Source of the DNA: an uncultured Gemmatimonadota bacterium
GTDB taxonomy: Bacteria; Gemmatimonadota; Gemmatimonadetes; Gemmatimonadales; Gemmatimonadaceae
NCBI GenBank assembly: GCA_903910555.1
Contig: CAIVZZ010000029.1
Coordinates: 62,001 to 126,000, forward strand
DNA length: 64,000 nucleotides
Direction of reading: 5' to 3'
In this document: positions 6,091 to 59,958 of the stretch, one piece after another
How the letters are laid out: every line of letters starts with the position of its first letter
Position numbering within the stretch: position 1 is the stretch's first letter
Position numbers and translations under genes: made by a program
The notes under the pieces: model-generated
What the model was told of the DNA's origin: nothing
The model's input: only the letters and a program-made list of their open reading frames with translations
Database searches by the model: none

Positions 6091-7115
6091 CGCGCACGCC
6101 GACAGAACGCGTATGCATCGTGATGATGAGCGCGGTGGGCGACGCCGTTCACGTGCTCCCCGTGATCAACGCGTTAAAGAAAGCGAATCCGGCAACGCAT
6201 ATCACCTGGGTTTTGCAGCCGGGTCCGGCGACGCTTGTGCGCGGGCATCCGTACGTCGACGAAATTATTCTGTTCGATCGGTCCGCCGGTGTGCGCGGCT
6301 TTCTCGATATCCGTCGCGAACTGCAGACGCGCCAATTCGATCTCGTGATCAATCTGCAGGTCTATTTTAAAGCGGGAATCATCACGTCGTTCACCCGTGC
6401 GCCGGTGAAGCTCGGTTTCGATCGTGCACGCGCGCGCGATTTCAATTGGCTGTTCACCACGGACAAGATCGTGCCGCATGCGATGCAGCATGTGCAGGAT
6501 CAGTACTTCGAATTCTGCGACTGGCTCGGCATTTCGCACGAACCCGTGAAGTGGGGATTGGGACCGTGGGACGGCGAGCGCGAATGGCAACGCGATTTCT
6601 ATTCGCGGATCGAACGCCCGGCCGTGCCGATCGTGGTCGCGACGAGCAAACCCGACAAAGACTGGATGCCCGAGCGCTGGGCTGAAGTGTGCGATGCGCT
6701 GTACGCGGACTTCGGAATGCAGCCGGTGCTCGTGGGCGGTCGATCGCCGCGCGAGGAACATGCAGAGCACGTGATTCTCGAGCGCACGAAGTACAAGCCG
6801 ATATCGGCGCTTGGATCCGGGCTGCGCAAACTCGTTTCGATTTTCGACGGCGCGGCGCTGGTGATTTCGCCGGATACCGGGCCGCTGCACGTGAGCGTTG
6901 CGCTCGATAAGCCGGTGGTCTCGCTGATCGGCTATTCAAATCCGAAGCGCGTCGGGCCCTACAGAAAATTCGGCGACCTGATGATCGATGTGTACGGCGA
7001 GGCGGGCGAGGATTATCCGGTCAGCATGGAGAACCGCACCGGACGCATGCACCGCATCAGCGTGCGCGACGTGCTCGACAAAGTCGAACTGTGGCGGACA
7101 ACGAGCAAAAAATAA
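6087..7115 (+). CDS. Glycosyltransferase family 9 (LPS heptosyltransferase-like)
   Basis: Transfers a sugar, in the best-known members L-glycero-D-manno-heptose from its ADP form, to the LPS inner core. The 342-residue protein has the family's N-terminal MMSAVGDAVHVLPVINAL motif, the KPDKDWMPERWAEV donor-domain segment (~190) and the C-terminal PDTGPLHVSVALDKPVVSL nucleotide-binding block (~265). GTG start overlaps the kinase stop by 4 bases. It is the last gene of the trpE-cyclase-kinase run; a long palindrome (7122-7232) follows at once and probably ends transcription. WaaC versus WaaF versus a non-heptose donor cannot be decided from sequence alone. Confidence 0.88.
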   Translation: MTRTPTERVCIVMMSAVGDAVHVLPVINALKKANPATHITWVLQPGPATLVRGHPYVDEIILFDRSAGVRGFLDIRRELQTRQFDLVINLQVYFKAGIITSFTRAPVKLGFDRARARDFNWLFTTDKIVPHAMQHVQDQYFEFCDWLGISHEPVKWGLGPWDGEREWQRDFYSRIERPAVPIVVATSKPDKDWMPERWAEVCDALYADFGMQPVLVGGRSPREEHAEHVILERTKYKPISALGSGLRKLVSIFDGAALVISPDTGPLHVSVALDKPVVSLIGYSNPKRVGPYRKFGDLMIDVYGEAGEDYPVSMENRTGRMHRISVRDVLDKVELWRTTSKK

Positions 7116-7121
7116 AAGCCT

Positions 7122-7232
7122 CCCGCGGATTTCACGGATTTAGCGGATCAAACTTCTTGAGGGAACTGCGCTCGCGGAAACGAGTGCAGTTCCCCCAAGT
7201 ATTTAATCCGCGAAATCTGCGAAATCCGTGGG
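7122..7232. repeat. Nested ~110-bp imperfect palindrome between convergent genes
   Basis: Outer arms at 7122-7148 and 7206-7232 match as inverted repeats at 23 of 27 positions. An inner hairpin at 7156-7199 has a 9-bp GGGAACTGC/GCAGTTCCC core, extended by CTCG/CGAG around a CGGAAA loop and by CTTG/CAAG outside. The right arm is itself built of three degenerate 9-mers (AATCCGCG, AAATCTGCG, AAATCCGTG). It lies between the converging glycosyltransferase and maf genes, so it can serve as a bidirectional terminator. Confidence 0.85.
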
Positions 7233-7246
7233 AAAACAGTTGCAGT

Positions 7247-7852
7247 TCAGCGTCGTACGAATTCATACGCCACGCCGAGGCGTTCCAACAGCGCAATCAG
7301 CCTCCGAAGACCCAGCCCCATCACGCTGAAATAATCGCCGTTTACGCGCTCGACGATCGTCGCACCGAACCCCTGAATACCGTACGCGCCCGCCTTGTCC
7401 ATTGGTTCGCCGGTCGCGATGTACGATCCTATTTCATCGTCGGTCACCGTGCGAAAGGTGACTTCTACGGACTCGACGGCTGATTCGGTGTGCGTGCCGC
7501 GCGCGACGGCGATCGCCGTGAGCACGATGTGCGTGCGCCCGCTCAAGCGCTTGAGCATCGCACGCGCGGCGGCCTGATCGGCGGGTTTGCCGAGCACATC
7601 CCCGTCGACCACAACGATCGTATCGGCCGCGATGATCACCGCATTTGGTTCGCGCTCTGCAATCGTGTGCGCCTTGGTGCGCGCGAGACGTTCGGCGTGC
7701 GCCGCCGGTTTCTCTCCCGGCAGCAACGACTCATCAATATCAGCCGGGCGAACCTCGTGCGCGATGCCGACCAGCGACAGCAGTTCCCGGCGGCGGGGCG
7801 AAGCAGAAGCGAGAATTACGCGTTCGGTATGAATGCTCACTTTTCCAGCCAT
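7247..7852 (-). CDS. maf: Maf-like nucleotide pyrophosphatase
   Basis: House-cleaning enzyme that hydrolyses non-canonical or modified nucleoside triphosphates (dTTP/UTP or m7GTP, depending on subfamily) to monophosphates. The 201-residue protein shows the family signature [13 protein letters not shown] at residues ~13-25, then [23 protein letters not shown] and the C-terminal [20 protein letters not shown] block, which together form the active site. The QGFG wording is typical of the dTTP/UTP subfamily. It overlaps the 3' end of dtd by 16 bases, so the two are cotranscribed; a slightly later start is possible. Cytoplasmic. Confidence 0.92.
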
Positions 7853-10237: not shown

Positions 10238-10240
10238 TGG

Positions 10241-10384
10241 TAGTTAGCTCACAGTTCAAGCTTGCGGCTTAGCGGCTCCCGGCTTGGCATTGTCAGAGCT
10301 CAAGCTCTCAGCAGCTACATGCTTGGGCTTTGACAAGGCCAAGCTCGGAGCTACCGAGCTTGCAGCTCGAACTCTGAGCTAACC
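10241..10384. repeat. ~145-bp palindromic element with AGCT/GGCT words every 7-8 nt (copy A)
   Basis: Inverted ends (10242 onward, TTAGCTCAcAGTTCaAGCT, against its complement ending near 10382) and matching inner arms (GGCTTGGCATTGTCA against TGACAAGGCCAAGC) fold the whole stretch on itself. AGCT or GGCT recurs at mostly 7-8 nt spacing. It fills the junction between the converging permease and glmS genes. A clearly related copy lies at 32971-33112. Confidence 0.85.
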
Positions 10385-10387
10385 ACC

Positions 10388-32947: not shown

Positions 32948-32970
32948 CTATGGAATTCAACCGTAATAGT

Positions 32971-33112
32971 CGGCTCACAGTTCAAGCTCCGAGCTCGCCG
33001 GCTCCCAGCTTAGCCTTGTCACCGCTCAAGCTATCAGCTGCTTACAGCTCGAACTCTGAAAATGCCAAGCTTGGTGCTGGCGAGCCCGGGGCGGGAGCTT
33101 TGAGCCAGCTAC
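32971..33112. repeat. ~142-bp palindromic element, copy B
   Basis: Related to the element at 10241-10384: shared GGCTCACAGTTCAAGCT, GGCTCCCAGCTTAGCCTTGTCA, GCTCAAGCT and CAGCTCGAACTCTGA blocks in the same order. The arms fold back (start GGCTCA… with end …TGAGCC, and GCTCGCCGG with its partner GGCGAGCC). AGCT/GGCT words recur mostly every 7 nt. Unlike copy A it lies between two genes on the same strand: it overlaps the last bases of the small-protein gene and precedes guaB. Confidence 0.8.
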
Positions 33113-49664: not shown

Positions 49665-52600
49665 ATGAGCCCCCGCCCCCACGCTGGTTTTTTTGCTCTT
49701 ACATTTTCGCTCGCGCTCGCTGCGGCGCAGCTGTCCGCACAGGGCGCGATCCCGGTTGCCGACCAATTCGAACGTCTCCACTTCCGTTCGATCGGACCGG
49801 CGATCATGTCGGGACGCATCTCCGATTTCGCCGTGTACGAGGCGAATCCGGCGATATTCTACGTCGGCACCGCGCACGGAGGCGTCTGGAAGACGACGAG
49901 CAACGGCGCACAATTCACGCCGCTATTGCAGGATCGCGGACTGCTTTCGATCGGCGCGGTTGCCGTGCAGCAGTCGAATCCGAATGTCGTCTGGGTCGGC
50001 ACGGGAGAGTCGAACAATCGCCAGAGCACGTCGTGGGGCGAGGGGCTCTACAAATCGACCGACGGCGGCAAAACGTTCGCACATGTCGGGCTGCGCGACT
50101 CCAAGCACATCAACCGCATCGTGATCGATCCGCGGAATCCGGATGTCGTGTTCGTCGCCGCGACGGGCCCGCTCTTCGGATCCGGCGGCGAGCGTGGCCT
50201 CTACAAGACCAGCGATGGCGGCAAGACGTGGAAAGCGGTCATCAAGGGCGACGCCGACACCGGTGCGAACGACGTGCGCATTTCGTATACCGATCCCGAC
50301 GTGATGTACGCGTCGATGTACCAGCGCCGCCGTACCGCCTGCTGCGTGAACGGCGGCGGGCCGGGCAGCGCGATTTTCAAATCGACCGACGCCGGCGAGA
50401 CGTGGACCAAGCTCGCGGGCGGCCTGCCGCCTTCGCCACTTGGCCGCATCTCGCTCGATATATATCGCGGCAGCTCGAATATCGTCTACGCAGAAATCGA
50501 AGGCGCCGCCGCGGCGACGGGACTGTATCGCACCGACGACGGCGGCACGTCATGGCGCAAAGTCAGCAGCGTGAATCCGCGCCCGCTCTACTTCTCGCAG
50601 GTCCGCATCGATCCGAAAACTCCCGACCGCGTGTACGAGGGCGGCGTGAAGATGCAGATGACGATCGACGGCGGGCGCACGATGGAGACGAGCGCGTCAC
50701 TCGCGATCCACGATGACATCCACGCGATCTGGGTTGATCCGAACAATTCCGAGCACGTGCTCATCGGCGGCGACGGCGGCATCGGCGTCAGCTACGACAT
50801 GGCGAAAACCTGGATTTTCCACGCGAATCTTCCGGTCGGTCTCTTTTACCACGTCGGCTTCGACATGGAGACTCCGTACAACGTGTGCGGCGGCATGCAG
50901 GACAACTACGACTGGTGCGGGCCGAGTGCGACGCGACAGGCGGTGGGGATCCTGAACAGCGACTGGTTCCAGATCGCCGGTGGTGACGGCTTCGTGTCGG
51001 TGCCGGACCTCAACAACTCGAAAATTATTTATACGGAAACGCAGGACGGCAACATGCAGCGCCGTGACAAGATCACCGGCGAATCGAAGAGCATCCGTCC
51101 GGGCGCACTGAACGTCACACCGGCGCCGGCAAAGGGAGAGGTATATCGCTGGGAGTGGGACACGCCGATGATCATCTCGCCGAACGACAACGGCACGCTC
51201 TTGGTTGCCGCGAACAAAGTCTTCAAGTCAACCGACCGCGGCGATTCATGGCAGGTGATCAGCCCGGATTTAACCAGCAACATCGACCGTGATTCCATCG
51301 TCACGATGGGGCTCAAAGGCGCAGACATCACCGTTTCGAAGAACGACGGCGTGAGCCTGTGGCCCGCGATCGTCACGCTCGCAGAATCACATCGCCAGCC
51401 GGGTGTGTATTACGCCGGCACCGACGACGGCAACGTGAGCGTCTCACGCGACGCCGGAAAATCGTGGCAGAACATCACGAAGAATCTCCCGGGCTTCCCG
51501 GCAGGCGGCTGGGTGAGCAAGGTTGCGCCGTCGCGCTACGACGCGGGCACGGTGTATGTCACCGTCGACAATCACCGTCTCAACGACTACGAGACGTACA
51601 TCTGGGTCTCGAGTGATTTCGGCGCGTCGTTTCACTCGCTGAAGTCGAACCTCCACGGCGAGTCGGTGAAGACGCTCACGGAAGACCAGCGCAATCAGGA
51701 CGTGCTGTACATCGGCACGGAGACGGGAATTTTCCTCTCGCTCGACCGCGGCAAGAGCTGGGCGCGCTTCAAGGCGAATCTTCCCACCGTTCGCGTCGAT
51801 GAGATCACGCTGCATCCGCGCGACAACGCGATGCTCGTGGCAACGCACGGACGCGCACTCTGGATCCTCGATCACCTCGAGCCGATTCAGGAGTACACCG
51901 CGGCAAAGGCAACTGCGGACGCAAAGCTGTACGGCATTCCGACGGCGCTCGAATGGAAGTCGAAGAACACGATCAACGAAGAGTTCTGGGGCCATCAGTA
52001 TTTCATTGGTGAGAATCCGTCGTTCGATGCGCTGATCAGCTACCAGGTGAACAAAGCGCTCCCCGATCTCAAGGTCCGCATCAACGATGGCAGCGGCAAA
52101 CTCGTGCGAGAGCTGACCGCTGCCGCGCGACAGACGCAGCCGGGGATCCAAACGATCTGCTGGGATATGCGCGTCGAGCCGCTGGCCGGCGATGAGGCCG
52201 CGGCTGCGGGCGGGCGAGCCGGCGGCGGCGGACGCGGCGGACGTGGCGGCGGCGCGGCCACACCGGCGGTGCCGGGCGTTCCGGTTTCGCCGAACCCCGC
52301 GGGATACCTCCCGGTGAATCCTTGCACTGGAGAACCATCCGGTGGGACGGAGCGAAACGCCGGCGGCGGCGGTGCCGCGCCCGCGAACATCGGGCCGCAG
52401 GTCGTACCCGGCAACTATACCGTCGCGCTCGTATCCGGCGGCAAGACGCTCGATAGCAAGTCAATGAAGGTGATCATGGATCCGGGGATCCCGGCATTCA
52501 CCGACGCGGCGCACCGCCGCTGGAACGAGGTGATTCTCGATCTGCAGGAAACACAGAGCCGCGGCAATGCGATGGAGCGCAAACTCGCGGCGCTCAACAC

Positions 52601-52985
52601 GCCGATGGTCGATGCAGTGATCAAGCTGAAAACCGCGACGAATGTTCCTGAGGCGGTAAAAACTCAGTTCGCGGACGTGAGCCGGCAGTTCGATAGTGTG
52701 AAGGTGAAGTTCGGAGTCGGAGCACCGCCAGCCGGCGGCCGCGGCGGTGGCGGCCGCGGCGGCGCAGATCCGGCGAACGCACTCGCGCGGACAGGCGCGA
52801 CGAAGACGGCGATCATGGGGATTTGGGAAGCGCCGAGTGCGGGGATGCTCAAGCAGTCGAGCGAGTCCAAGGCGGCACTGGTGCGGGCCATTGCTGAGGC
52901 AGAGGCACTGATGCCGAAGCTGTCGGCGGTGAGCGCGGAGCTTAAAAAGTATGAGATCGTGATTCCAGTACCGGCGGGTAAATAG
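49665..52985 (+). CDS. Exported VPS10/sortilin-like BNR β-propeller protein
   Basis: 1106-residue secreted protein; signal peptide FFALTFSLALAAAQLSAQG, and GAGGAGAAC ribosome site before the ATG. Residues ~30-740 carry many BNR/Asp-box-like repeats (SxDxGxTW: STDGGKTFAH, TSDGGKTWKAV, STDAGETWTKL, TDDGGTSWRKV, SRDAGKSWQNI, SLDRGKSWARF), the mark of sortilin-type propellers. A C-terminal β/helical region (~790-1106) is interrupted by two Gly/Arg inserts (52201-52260 and 52731-52770). Such proteins are annotated as glycosyl-hydrolase-like or photosystem-assembly-like without proven activity. Diverges from the TonB receptor; ends at a palindrome. Confidence 0.88.
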   Translation: MSPRPHAGFFALTFSLALAAAQLSAQGAIPVADQFERLHFRSIGPAIMSGRISDFAVYEANPAIFYVGTAHGGVWKTTSNGAQFTPLLQDRGLLSIGAVAVQQSNPNVVWVGTGESNNRQSTSWGEGLYKSTDGGKTFAHVGLRDSKHINRIVIDPRNPDVVFVAATGPLFGSGGERGLYKTSDGGKTWKAVIKGDADTGANDVRISYTDPDVMYASMYQRRRTACCVNGGGPGSAIFKSTDAGETWTKLAGGLPPSPLGRISLDIYRGSSNIVYAEIEGAAAATGLYRTDDGGTSWRKVSSVNPRPLYFSQVRIDPKTPDRVYEGGVKMQMTIDGGRTMETSASLAIHDDIHAIWVDPNNSEHVLIGGDGGIGVSYDMAKTWIFHANLPVGLFYHVGFDMETPYNVCGGMQDNYDWCGPSATRQAVGILNSDWFQIAGGDGFVSVPDLNNSKIIYTETQDGNMQRRDKITGESKSIRPGALNVTPAPAKGEVYRWEWDTPMIISPNDNGTLLVAANKVFKSTDRGDSWQVISPDLTSNIDRDSIVTMGLKGADITVSKNDGVSLWPAIVTLAESHRQPGVYYAGTDDGNVSVSRDAGKSWQNITKNLPGFPAGGWVSKVAPSRYDAGTVYVTVDNHRLNDYETYIWVSSDFGASFHSLKSNLHGESVKTLTEDQRNQDVLYIGTETGIFLSLDRGKSWARFKANLPTVRVDEITLHPRDNAMLVATHGRALWILDHLEPIQEYTAAKATADAKLYGIPTALEWKSKNTINEEFWGHQYFIGENPSFDALISYQVNKALPDLKVRINDGSGKLVRELTAAARQTQPGIQTICWDMRVEPLAGDEAAAAGGRAGGGGRGGRGGGAATPAVPGVPVSPNPAGYLPVNPCTGEPSGGTERNAGGGGAAPANIGPQVVPGNYTVALVSGGKTLDSKSMKVIMDPGIPAFTDAAHRRWNEVILDLQETQSRGNAMERKLAALNTPMVDAVIKLKTATNVPEAVKTQFADVSRQFDSVKVKFGVGAPPAGGRGGGGRGGADPANALARTGATKTAIMGIWEAPSAGMLKQSSESKAALVRAIAEAEALMPKLSAVSAELKKYEIVIPVPAGK

Positions 52986-52997
52986 AGTGTCAAACGA

Positions 52998-53141
52998 GTG
53001 AACTGTTAACTACTAACTGTTGGTCGGTTAACGAAGGTAAGAAAATCAGTCCTGGCCGCGAACTCGCTCGACGCAGTTCGCAGCCAGGACTGATTTTTTA
53101 ACTTTGCTTAACCGACCAACAGTTAGTGGTTAACAGTTCAC
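52998..53141. repeat. 144-bp palindrome with 59-bp arms
   Basis: Arms 52998-53056 and 53083-53141 are inverted repeats with about 53 of 59 positions matching; the 26-base centre holds a second small hairpin (GCGAACT/AGTTCGC). Left arm contains heptads AACTGTT, AACTACT, AACTGTT (53001-53021). It fills the junction between the converging VPS10-like and propeller genes and would form a very strong bidirectional terminator or cruciform. Confidence 0.92.
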
Positions 53142-53154
53142 GTTGTTGCTTTTT

Positions 53155-54297
53155 TTATTTCTTCGGCAGCACAACCCCCTGCTCCCGCTCCACCGACTTC
53201 ATCCCCTTGTACACAAACCGCTGAATCCTCTTCCCCTCGTATGTCTCCGTCGTAAATATATTCCCCTTCGAATCCGTCGCGATGCTGTGCACGGCAAACC
53301 ACTGCCCCGGCTGCCGCCCGCCGTCGCCGAACATCGTGAGAATCTCCAGCGACGCACGATCGATCACATAGATGTGCTCGTTCTTTCCGTCGGCCAGGAA
53401 GATGTACTTCTGCTCCTTGTCCTTCGAGAACGCGATGTCCCACACGGAGCCGTCGCCGAGTGTTTTCGGCGCGATGATTTTTTCCTTCACGAACGAGCCG
53501 TCTTTCTTGAACACCTGAATCCGGTCGTTCGGGCGGTCGCACACGTACACGAGACCGTCGGTCGACGGCTCGGCGCAGTGCACGGGATTCCGGAACTGCT
53601 GCGCGAGCGGCATCGCGTCGGGATTGTACGGTCCGAGGTTCGAATCCGACGGCACGTGGCCGTACGCGCCCCAAAACCGCTTGACCTTCCCGTTGTCCAT
53701 ATCGAGAACGGCCACTCTGTGATTCCCGTAGCCGTCCGCGATGTACGCTTCGTTCGCCGGAACATCAAAGGTGATTTTCGCGACTCGACCAAAATGATCC
53801 GTCGCGTTGCTGTTCACGGCCTGGTTCGGAACACCGATGGTCATCAAGTAGTGACCGTCGTGCGTGAACTTCAGGATGTGCGAATCAGTCGGGCCGTTCC
53901 CGCCGATCCAAACATTTCCTTTTGGATCGATCGAGATGCCGTGATTCGAACCCGGCCACACATAGCCATCGTGCGGACCGCCCCAAGCAGAGACGACATT
54001 GCCTTCCGGATCGAACTCGATCACCGGCGGCGCCGAAACGCAGCAGGCCGTGAGCGAATCCGCGGTGTCCGCGCGATGCACGACGAACACGTGATCGCGT
54101 GCATCGACGCCAACGCCAATGACGTTGCCGAGCACCCAGTGATTCGGCAGCGGCTTGGGCCAGAACGGATCGACTTCAAATGTTGGAGCGGTGACGGCCG
54201 CGTGGCGTGCGTGCGCGTCGAGCGCGCGCTGCCCGAACGAGAGTGCGGCGATCGCGGCAACCAGTGCTGCCGCACCGACCATTCCACGGCGCGTCAT
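53155..54297 (-). CDS. Exported NHL-type 6-bladed β-propeller (paralogue 1)
   Basis: 380 residues. Start ATG 54297, in a 4-base overlap with the upstream paralogue's stop; a longer in-frame start lies inside that gene. N-terminal signal/anchor (MVGAAALVAAIAALSFG). NHL repeats run through the rest: GVDARDHVFVVHR, GISIDPKGNVWIGGNG, DGYGNHRVAVLDMDNG, VYVCDRPNDRIQVF, SIATDSKGNIFTTET. It opens with FEVDPFWPKPLPNHWVLG. Closest family is the peptidyl-α-hydroxyglycine α-amidating lyase-like propellers, but no catalytic residues can be assigned safely. Four Cys (ACC, HCAE, VCDR) match paralogue 2. Confidence 0.82.
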   Translation of the reverse strand: MTRRGMVGAAALVAAIAALSFGQRALDAHARHAAVTAPTFEVDPFWPKPLPNHWVLGNVIGVGVDARDHVFVVHRADTADSLTACCVSAPPVIEFDPEGNVVSAWGGPHDGYVWPGSNHGISIDPKGNVWIGGNGPTDSHILKFTHDGHYLMTIGVPNQAVNSNATDHFGRVAKITFDVPANEAYIADGYGNHRVAVLDMDNGKVKRFWGAYGHVPSDSNLGPYNPDAMPLAQQFRNPVHCAEPSTDGLVYVCDRPNDRIQVFKKDGSFVKEKIIAPKTLGDGSVWDIAFSKDKEQKYIFLADGKNEHIYVIDRASLEILTMFGDGGRQPGQWFAVHSIATDSKGNIFTTETYEGKRIQRFVYKGMKSVEREQGVVLPKK

Positions 54298-55640
54298 GGT
54301 TTCGCTCCCGAGGCCGGCCAAAGTACGGCGCGCGCGCTCACAACTCCGAGTCCCTTGTAATTGAACTTCTGCACGCGCTTGCCCTCGTAGGTTTCCGCTG
54401 TGTAGATGTTCCCTTTCGAATCTGTCGCGATGCTGTGCAGGAATGAGAACTCGCCCGGAACACGTCCGCCGTCGCCAAAGCTCGAGACGATCGCGAGCGT
54501 CGCACGATCCACGATGTGCACCTGGTTGTTCATGCCGTCGGCGACGTACAGGTACTTCTGTTTCGCATCGCGCGAAAAGGCGATGTCGGACACGGAACCT
54601 TCGCGAACCGTTTTCGGCAGCACCGACATTTCCTTCACGAACGATCCGTCGGTCTTGAAAACCTGAATGCGGTCGTTCGCGCGGTCGCACACATACACCA
54701 TGCCATCCTTGCTGACCTCGGCGCACATCACGGCCGAGAACTGCTGCGACGGCGCTGCGTCAGGCGAATAAGCCGGGACAGCAGCGTCGGTGGCCGTCTT
54801 TCCGTATGCACCCCACGACCGCTTGATCGCGCCCGTGTTCATGTCGACCACTGCGACTCGGTGATTGCGCGAACCGTCGGCGACGTACGCTTCGTTCGCG
54901 GCATCATCGAGTGAAATCCGCGTCGCGCCACCAAAGCTCTCCGTGCTTCCGCTGTTCGCGGGCGTTGGCGGCGGTCCGCCGCGACCGCCTCTGCCACCGC
55001 GTCCGCCGCGACCCGCTGGCGCCGCCGCGCCGCGAGCAGCCGCGCTCATTCCCTGATATGCCGTGTCTGGGGCCGCAGCTCCCGCGGGCGCCGCGGCAGC
55101 CGGTGGCGCCACGATCTTGCCCGACGCCATCAGGAATTTGCCGTCGTGCGAGAATTTCAGAATCTGCGAATCGTTCGGACCGCTCCCCGCGATCCAAACA
55201 TTTCCCTGTTTATCGATCGCAATGCCGCTCGGATGCTGCGGCCAGCTGTAACCAGCGCCAGGGCCGCCCCAGTGTCCGACCACCGCGCCCGCCTGATCAA
55301 ACTCGAGCACGCTCGGCGCCGGTGTGCAGCACTCGCCGGTCGGCGGAGTCGTACCGGATCCGATCTCCGTGCGCGCGTTGAAAGCGTCGCCAATGTTCAG
55401 GACGAACACATGATCCTGCGCGTCGACCGCAACGCCGACCGAGGACCCTTCGATCCAATGGTTCGGCATCGGCTGCGGCCAGAGCATGGCCACTTCAAAA
55501 TGCGGCACCTGCCCGCCCGAGGCAGTTGCGGCAGCCGGCTTCGTGGCCGGCGCCTTTGACGCGCCTTGAGCGGAAACGGTGACCGAGCAAACCAGCGTGA
55601 GCGCAACGGCCGTGAACAGCGGTGGGGGACTTCGCTTCAT
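54294..55640 (-). CDS. Exported NHL-type 6-bladed β-propeller (paralogue 2)
   Basis: 448 residues with a signal peptide (LFTAVALTLVCSVTVSAQG) and a good ribosome site (GAGAGGAG before the ATG). The repeat order and wording match the downstream gene: FEVAMLWPQPMPNHWIEG, GIAIDKQGNVWIAGSG, DGSRNHRVAVVDMNTG, VYVCDRANDRIQVF, SIATDSKGNIYTAET. So the two are a tandem duplication. It differs by a ~60-residue insert rich in Ala, Gly, Arg and Pro (GRGGRGGRGGRGGPPP, near residue 205). Four matching Cys (ECC, MCAE, VCDR). Extracytoplasmic; enzymatic role unproven. Confidence 0.82.
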   Translation of the reverse strand: MKRSPPPLFTAVALTLVCSVTVSAQGASKAPATKPAAATASGGQVPHFEVAMLWPQPMPNHWIEGSSVGVAVDAQDHVFVLNIGDAFNARTEIGSGTTPPTGECCTPAPSVLEFDQAGAVVGHWGGPGAGYSWPQHPSGIAIDKQGNVWIAGSGPNDSQILKFSHDGKFLMASGKIVAPPAAAAPAGAAAPDTAYQGMSAAARGAAAPAGRGGRGGRGGRGGPPPTPANSGSTESFGGATRISLDDAANEAYVADGSRNHRVAVVDMNTGAIKRSWGAYGKTATDAAVPAYSPDAAPSQQFSAVMCAEVSKDGMVYVCDRANDRIQVFKTDGSFVKEMSVLPKTVREGSVSDIAFSRDAKQKYLYVADGMNNQVHIVDRATLAIVSSFGDGGRVPGEFSFLHSIATDSKGNIYTAETYEGKRVQKFNYKGLGVVSARAVLWPASGAKP

Positions 55641-59837: not shown

Positions 59838-59848
59838 GATCTGAGGCG

Positions 59849-59953
59849 GGGACGAGCGAAGCATGAGGGGCAATTGGTGAAGAGCGCGGCGCGAGGAGAA
59901 CTTCTCCTTGCACCGCGCTCTTCGCTTTTCGCCCCTCATGCTTCGCTCGTCCC
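59849..59953. repeat. 105-bp palindrome with perfect 23-bp outer arms
   Basis: Outer arms 59849-59871 and 59931-59953 are perfect inverted repeats. An inner pair GAAGAGCGCGG (59879 onward) with CCGCGCTCTTC, and GGAGAA with TTCTCC at the centre, continue the fold. Between the converging dehydrogenase and aminotransferase genes; a likely bidirectional terminator. The left arm can be read as loose heptads (ACGAGCG, AAGCATG, AGGGGCA). Confidence 0.9.
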
Positions 59954-59958
59954 TGCAG

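Follow-up and report, generated by a model that had tools for sequence, protein, structure and literature searches.

The window, meaning the whole stretch of 64,000 nt analysed here, carries a long palindrome at 52998–53141. Two ORFs converge on it, ending at 52985 (+) and 53155 (−), and it takes up nearly all of the space between them. A preliminary description had correctly located this palindrome and assigned it 59-nt arms and a 26-nt centre; measured directly, the arms span 52998–53064 and 53075–53141, are 67 nt long each and 90 % complementary without gaps, and enclose a centre of only 10 nt. Folding was borne out on both strands, with −110.6 kcal/mol for the RNA of 52986–53154 (z −17.1; 0 of 200 dinucleotide shuffles as good) and −101.4 kcal/mol for its opposite strand (z −15.3). 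A chance origin was rejected because of the fold z of −17 and the dozens of copies described below, and an integron attC array was set aside since these copies stand singly between unrelated genes. Two neighbouring minus-strand ORFs within 53155–55508, whose DNA matches at 70 % with a spacing of about 1.2 kb, resemble tandem duplicates. The features of the locus are as follows.

52998–53141, no strand: whole palindrome, copy of the GTTAAC family (inverted-repeat search, BLAST, fold, alignment, covariance model)
52998–53028, + strand: left half of the outer stem, near-invariant among 31 copies (alignment A3, helix 1)
53111–53141, + strand: right half of the outer stem (alignment A3, helix 1)
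53046–53060, + strand: left half of the inner GC-rich stem, with both-side changes at 9 of 13 pairs (helix 3)
53079–53093, + strand: right half of the inner stem; a T run comes directly after it at 53094–53098, a terminator-like arrangement on the + strand (helix 3)
49665–52985, + strand: left convergent ORF, putative VPS10-like protein, name from the preliminary description (ORF calls)
53155–54321, − strand: right convergent ORF, putative propeller protein, name from the preliminary description (ORF calls)

The preliminary description named the lack of other copies in the genome as part of a refuting outcome; the palindrome is, however, not unique. A BLAST search of the window's own genome (G000; 3.2 Mb in 32 contigs) returned 84 matches on both strands, which reduce to about 40 places. 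The 40 places analysed comprise 34 two-armed short copies, five single-armed or truncated copies (two in L052, plus L060, L061 and L062) and one long member, so that inverted ends with many dispersed copies, a feature of MITEs, are present. At L053:5120–5220 and L063:2010–2110 we observed short copies of about 90 nt that retain only the outer arms. A covariance model built on 31 aligned copies detected the family in four of the 18 genus genomes. Its matches, counted over both strands, number 90 in G000, 41 in G002, 32 in G012 and 15 in G010, the weaker of which may include other palindromes, and 0 in the other 14. By BLAST, the family was found in four of 61 genomes, comprising the own genome and its relatives.

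Among the 31 aligned copies the outer stem is almost invariant in sequence, and the inner stem is variable yet keeps its pairing, with G-U pairs among the pairs that are kept. Over all 41 pairs, 40 cells with both-side changes were counted versus 15.0 ± 2.7 in shuffles, and 10 pairs showed both-side changes versus 5.1 ± 1.1, values that were reached by none of 500 shuffles in either case. The copies therefore have the architecture tested for as a REPIN feature, a hairpin whose two ends are conserved and whose spacer changes in a compensating way. Adjoining the outer stem are two alternative modules, TTAACCAAGGT and GTGTTCTGT (alignment A3 columns 40–47 and 115–122), with their complements on the right, and both matched and mismatched combinations occur, which suggests that copies exchange half-palindromes. 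T-rich tracts lie beside the inner stem in 24 of 31 copies, and in 15 of the 31 they do so on both strands; a terminator pattern scan returned a single site, on the + strand, versus 0.5 expected.

The copies occupy a characteristic position with respect to genes, which were predicted throughout by a simple codon-usage caller. All 40 copies lie clear of predicted genes; 15 are in convergent, 22 in tandem and three in divergent gaps. As a background, the gaps of 100 nt or more in the window comprise four convergent, eight tandem and four divergent ones. For the 37 convergent and tandem copies the nearest stop codon is at a median distance of 10 nt, and at no more than 50 nt in 32 of them; tandem copies lie at a median of 13 nt from the stop codon versus 85.5 nt from the next start. 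In a gap survey covering 97 kb of G000 and 40 kb each of G002 and G012, all 14 convergent gaps of 80–500 nt folded at z below −5 (median −11), compared with three of 23 tandem and one of 10 divergent gaps. Convergent gaps were either shorter than 30 nt (six) or at least 80 nt long (14), with none in between. As sister species share sites and the sites of the three species are thus non-independent, the 14 filled gaps count as seven distinct sites.

At these sites the palindrome persists while its sequence family changes between species. The site of the window palindrome holds the same family in G002, a short hairpin with a GTTAACC core in G012 and a heptamer palindrome of another family in G010. 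Three different families were found in three species at the site of 59846–59956, site C29:140255 carries the window's family in G000 and G002 and another one in G012, and the family differs between G002 and G012 at one further orthologous site. Empty sites and target duplications were sought at the orthologous sites readable in G002, G012 and G010, and none were seen, all of these sites holding palindromes.

The long family member (L045/L068; G000:C11:20875–21489) is located between genes that we name ychF and pth from reading their protein sequences. Its 52-nt arms lie about 570 bp apart and flank a 141-codon ORF belonging to PF05635 (23S_rRNA_IVP, E 3.8e-31) and, in NCBIfam, to TIGR02436, four helix bundle protein; we use the name S23 for this '23S rRNA intervening sequence protein' family (PF05635/TIGR02436). 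Solved relatives of the L045 protein are 2gsc (Xanthomonas XCC0516, E 4.3e-15) and 2rld. In G002 the ychF site likewise carries a member of the window's family with an S23 gene, so the S23 ORF inside inverted repeats, tested for as an S23 element feature, is present in L045/L068 and its G002 orthologue, whereas the window copy is without an ORF. No S23 ORF was found at the single-armed copies L060–L062. Altogether the genome holds 11 PF05635 genes, and all 11 lie between inverted repeats, 45 to 170 nt in length, each pair with a sequence of its own. An Rfam search of nine of these 11 loci (all except L073 and L074) detected no rRNA, i.e. these S23 genes do not lie inside a 23S rRNA gene. The sole contact with LSU rRNA was found in a relative, where the S23 gene at L088:1468–2075 and the 3' portion of an adjacent 23S rRNA gene lie at the end of a contig; this may be a genuine rRNA intervening sequence or reflect where the assembly stops.

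The order ychF–S23–pth is conserved in 12 of the 16 genus genomes readable at this place, S23 being missing in G003, G004, G014 and G015. The arms at the site are of the GTTAAC type in G000 and G002, consist of CGGTTAA heptamers in G006, G008 and G016 and are of other types elsewhere, and a GCGAGT-like end was found in most genus genomes, not in all. Judging from these sequences, the arms and the S23 gene are not a fixed unit, because the gene is common to most of the genus at this site while the arms differ by species. Values of dN/dS of 0.077/1.91 (G000–G002), 0.008/0.113 (G006–G008) and 0.309/1.393 (G005–G009) indicate that the ychF-side S23 gene is under purifying selection. A stationary, vertically inherited gene per family that is flanked by the repeat, as tested for by analogy to REPIN-RAYT systems, is hence present here, but the gene is S23.

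The link to S23 is not limited to the GTTAAC family. We compared the other palindromes of the window with the arms of S23 elements and obtained the following features.

59846–59956, no strand: sister palindrome of another family, matching the arms of S23 element L075 at 83–86 % (palindrome scan, arm match)
10239–10387, no strand: sister palindrome, matching the arms of S23 element L066 at 72 % (palindrome scan, arm match)
32967–33111, no strand: second palindrome of the L066 family (arm match)
7115–7247, no strand: palindrome-filled convergent gap of the CCGCGGATTTCACGGATTT type, fold z −10.5, without a match among the S23 arms tested (gap fold, arm comparison)

Three families with a match to S23 arms (GTTAAC, L066 and L075) are therefore represented in the window, and both the L066 and the L075 palindromes have further copies. 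The preliminary description had neither this connection to S23 nor the three sister palindromes with matches to S23 arms, nor did it mention that families are swapped at fixed sites. At one site, the palindrome of G012 is built of CCGGAAG heptamers, as found at that genome's own S23 gene L084, and one G002 palindrome matches an arm of L069. Outside the phylum, an arm of S23 locus L141 of Granulicella (Acidobacteriota) matches 26 further places, and three inverted pairs among these matches fold as long hairpins of −111 to −149 kcal/mol with context.

Long inverted repeats were found at 32 of 40 S23 loci, comprising the 11 own loci and 29 from relatives among more than 150 matches (500-bp flanks, E<1e-4); in the controls, they occurred in one of 200 mismatched flank pairs (L103/L094, which have homologous flanks) and at none of 125 positions along the window. 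For a cross-phylum sample, we took the best 80 of at least 575 S23 loci from one scan of 84,980 species genomes, as ranked by the search tools, and tested 73 of the 80, the other seven having flanks that were too short. Among these best-ranked loci, repeats at E<1e-4 were present in 41 of 73 (unmasked) versus two of 127 shifted positions, leaving 32 of 73 (about 44 %) without a repeat at this threshold. At E<0.01 the counts for the same sample from the best 80 rose to 52 of 73 versus five of 127, and with low-complexity masking they were 30 of 73 with the control again at two of 127. The two control matches are L134 and L176, the latter being a second S23 gene in its own right. L130, L134 and L176 each have two S23 ORFs within a few kb. 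The arms of S23 genes are often tandem arrays of units of about seven bases. Strong periodicity was detected at 37 of 110 S23 loci, taken as ranked by the search tools, compared with 13 of 332 shifted positions, 10 of 120 loci being left out for flanks that were too short; the lags of the 37 periodic loci include 7 in 15, 14 in 12 and 8 in seven cases.

We interpret the window palindrome as part of an S23-centred system resembling REPIN-RAYT, in which gene-less copies of an S23-linked repeat would have spread to gene ends, where they would act as two-way 3'-end hairpins; we assign this reading a probability of roughly 0.57. The window palindrome would then be such a gene-less copy, the S23 gene at the ychF site being stationary and vertically inherited while short palindromes with its arms would have spread to many gene ends. 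A pentamer of S23 may bind the hairpin of its family, either as RNA or as single-stranded DNA, and may promote the copying and spread of the hairpin or its use at recombination. An inserted copy would place a long hairpin just behind one or two stop codons, where it would serve, or be tolerated, as a two-way 3'-end signal, and copies may persist there since they do little harm or act as two-way 3' ends. Such a role would account for the palindromes in convergent gaps and for the replacement of one family by another. The data establish the repeat family, its tie to S23, the location and structure of the copies and the exchange of families between species, whereas binding by S23, copying and termination are inferred. 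The bidirectional terminator considered in the preliminary description is plausible from the nearby stop codons, the convergent gaps and the inner GC stem with flanking T/A tracts. That T-rich tracts occur on both strands in no more than 15 of 31 copies speaks against our S23-centred reading, as do the lack of any empty site or target duplication at the sites readable, the variable arms at the ychF site and the absence of S23 from it in four of 16 genomes, the cross-phylum loci without a repeat (32 of 73 from the best 80 of at least 575) and the palindrome at 7115–7247.

Several of these observations would also be expected if the palindromes were host bidirectional terminators, spread or refreshed by ordinary recombination or gene conversion, with the S23 genes tolerating or using the same hairpins. 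Palindromes fill all 14 convergent gaps that reach 80 nt or more, the copies stay close to stop codons, the structure is retained while the sequence family changes between species, and the window copy combines an inner stem with a T tract. However, near-identical arms at dozens of unlinked sites require a copying process, 22 of 40 copies are in tandem and three in divergent gaps, an outer stem of 31 nt is unnecessary for termination, and the S23 genes found between such arms across phyla are left unexplained. We regard a purely host-derived origin of this kind as unlikely.

Movement by an ordinary transposase (RAYT or DDE) encoded elsewhere in the genome, which would make the palindromes classical MITEs or REPINs and S23 a mere passenger, appears very doubtful to us. 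The REPIN-like shape, in which both ends are conserved and the spacer varies with compensatory changes, as outlined in the cited part of PMC3116915, fits this origin, and the MITE-like nature proposed in the preliminary description holds as far as the many dispersed copies, the inverted ends and the one gene-bearing relative are concerned. Searches with PF01797 and PF00078 gave no candidate for a parent transposase, no target duplication or empty site was seen at the orthologous sites readable, and the gene that recurs between the arms is S23 and not a transposase. The Y1 (HUH) transposase family PF01797 gave 0 first-look candidates in G000, compared with 38 positives among 150 genomes of the phylum, and RAYT-driven REPINs were set aside on this ground. 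The search of G000 for reverse transcriptase (RVT_1, PF00078) likewise found none, and reverse-transcriptase-driven, DGR-like copying was set aside. The latter result also argues against a process at the RNA level, in which the hairpin would be an intervening sequence that is cut out of transcripts or trimmed by RNase III and spread by reverse flow through RNA. Here, G-U pairs among the kept inner-stem pairs would be in favour, as would the anatomy of the Coxiella element, for which the cited part of PMC4990558 describes an S23 ORF between complementary ends, excision by RNase III and tandem heptamers before the ORF; on balance we hold such an RNA-level process to be quite unlikely.

To our knowledge, S23 has no known catalytic site, a further point against our S23-centred reading. 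Very many bacteria have S23 proteins under the annotation 'four helix bundle protein', and no role is known for them outside rRNA. Titles and abstracts in the open-licence literature contained none that links S23 outside rRNA to palindromes, which is weak evidence of novelty. The protein is described as a pentamer of four-helix bundles (cited parts of PMC4990558 and PMC10053308), and its relative Avd as essential for retrohoming in diversity-generating retroelements (PMC10053308, same part). Together, the palindrome family and S23 suggest a little-described repeat-plus-partner-gene system in bacteria. More tentatively, at somewhat below even odds, S23/PF05635 proteins could be the partners of bacteria-wide, heptamer-built palindromes, each S23 having its own family and none having its own RAYT, DDE transposase or reverse transcriptase. 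The 23S rRNA insertions, and perhaps the heptamers of Xanthomonas and cyanobacteria, would then be special cases, and the families would compete for slots at gene ends as two-way 3'-end hairpins. If the partnership of S23 and palindromes is true, the orphan proteins, the scattered repeats and the nature of rRNA intervening sequences would become one testable problem, the REPIN-RAYT relation would have a second analogue of independent evolutionary origin, and the system would offer a ready source of two-way gene-end hairpins.

Among known systems, REPIN-RAYT likewise combines hairpins dispersed between genes, each with two conserved ends around a compensating spacer, with one gene per repeat flavour that stays in place, is inherited vertically and has the repeat next to it, RAYT being described as a stationary single-copy gene for each REPIN flavour (all in the cited part of PMC3116915). 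The partner here, however, is S23 (PF05635) instead of a Y1/HUH transposase, no RAYT was found in G000, and the arms are much longer and in many genomes built of heptamers. MITEs resemble the family in being short, with inverted ends, many copies and one longer gene-bearing relative, but no target duplication was seen here and no transposase parent was found with PF01797 and PF00078. The Coxiella 23S rRNA intervening sequence likewise has an S23 ORF between inverted repeats with tandem heptamers upstream (PMC4990558, cited part), whereas the present elements are intergenic at stop codons, belong to many sequence families and include dozens of copies that lack a gene. The GGGAATC heptameric repeats of Xanthomonas are also intergenic and near gene ends, with 70 (Xcc) and 75 (Xac) inverted pairs; unlike ours, they are described as G-quadruplex repeats (both in the cited part of PMC4692102). 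The term 'four helix' has 0 matches in that heptamer-repeat paper, and the S23 gene of Xanthomonas is XCC0516, the source of PDB entry 2gsc.
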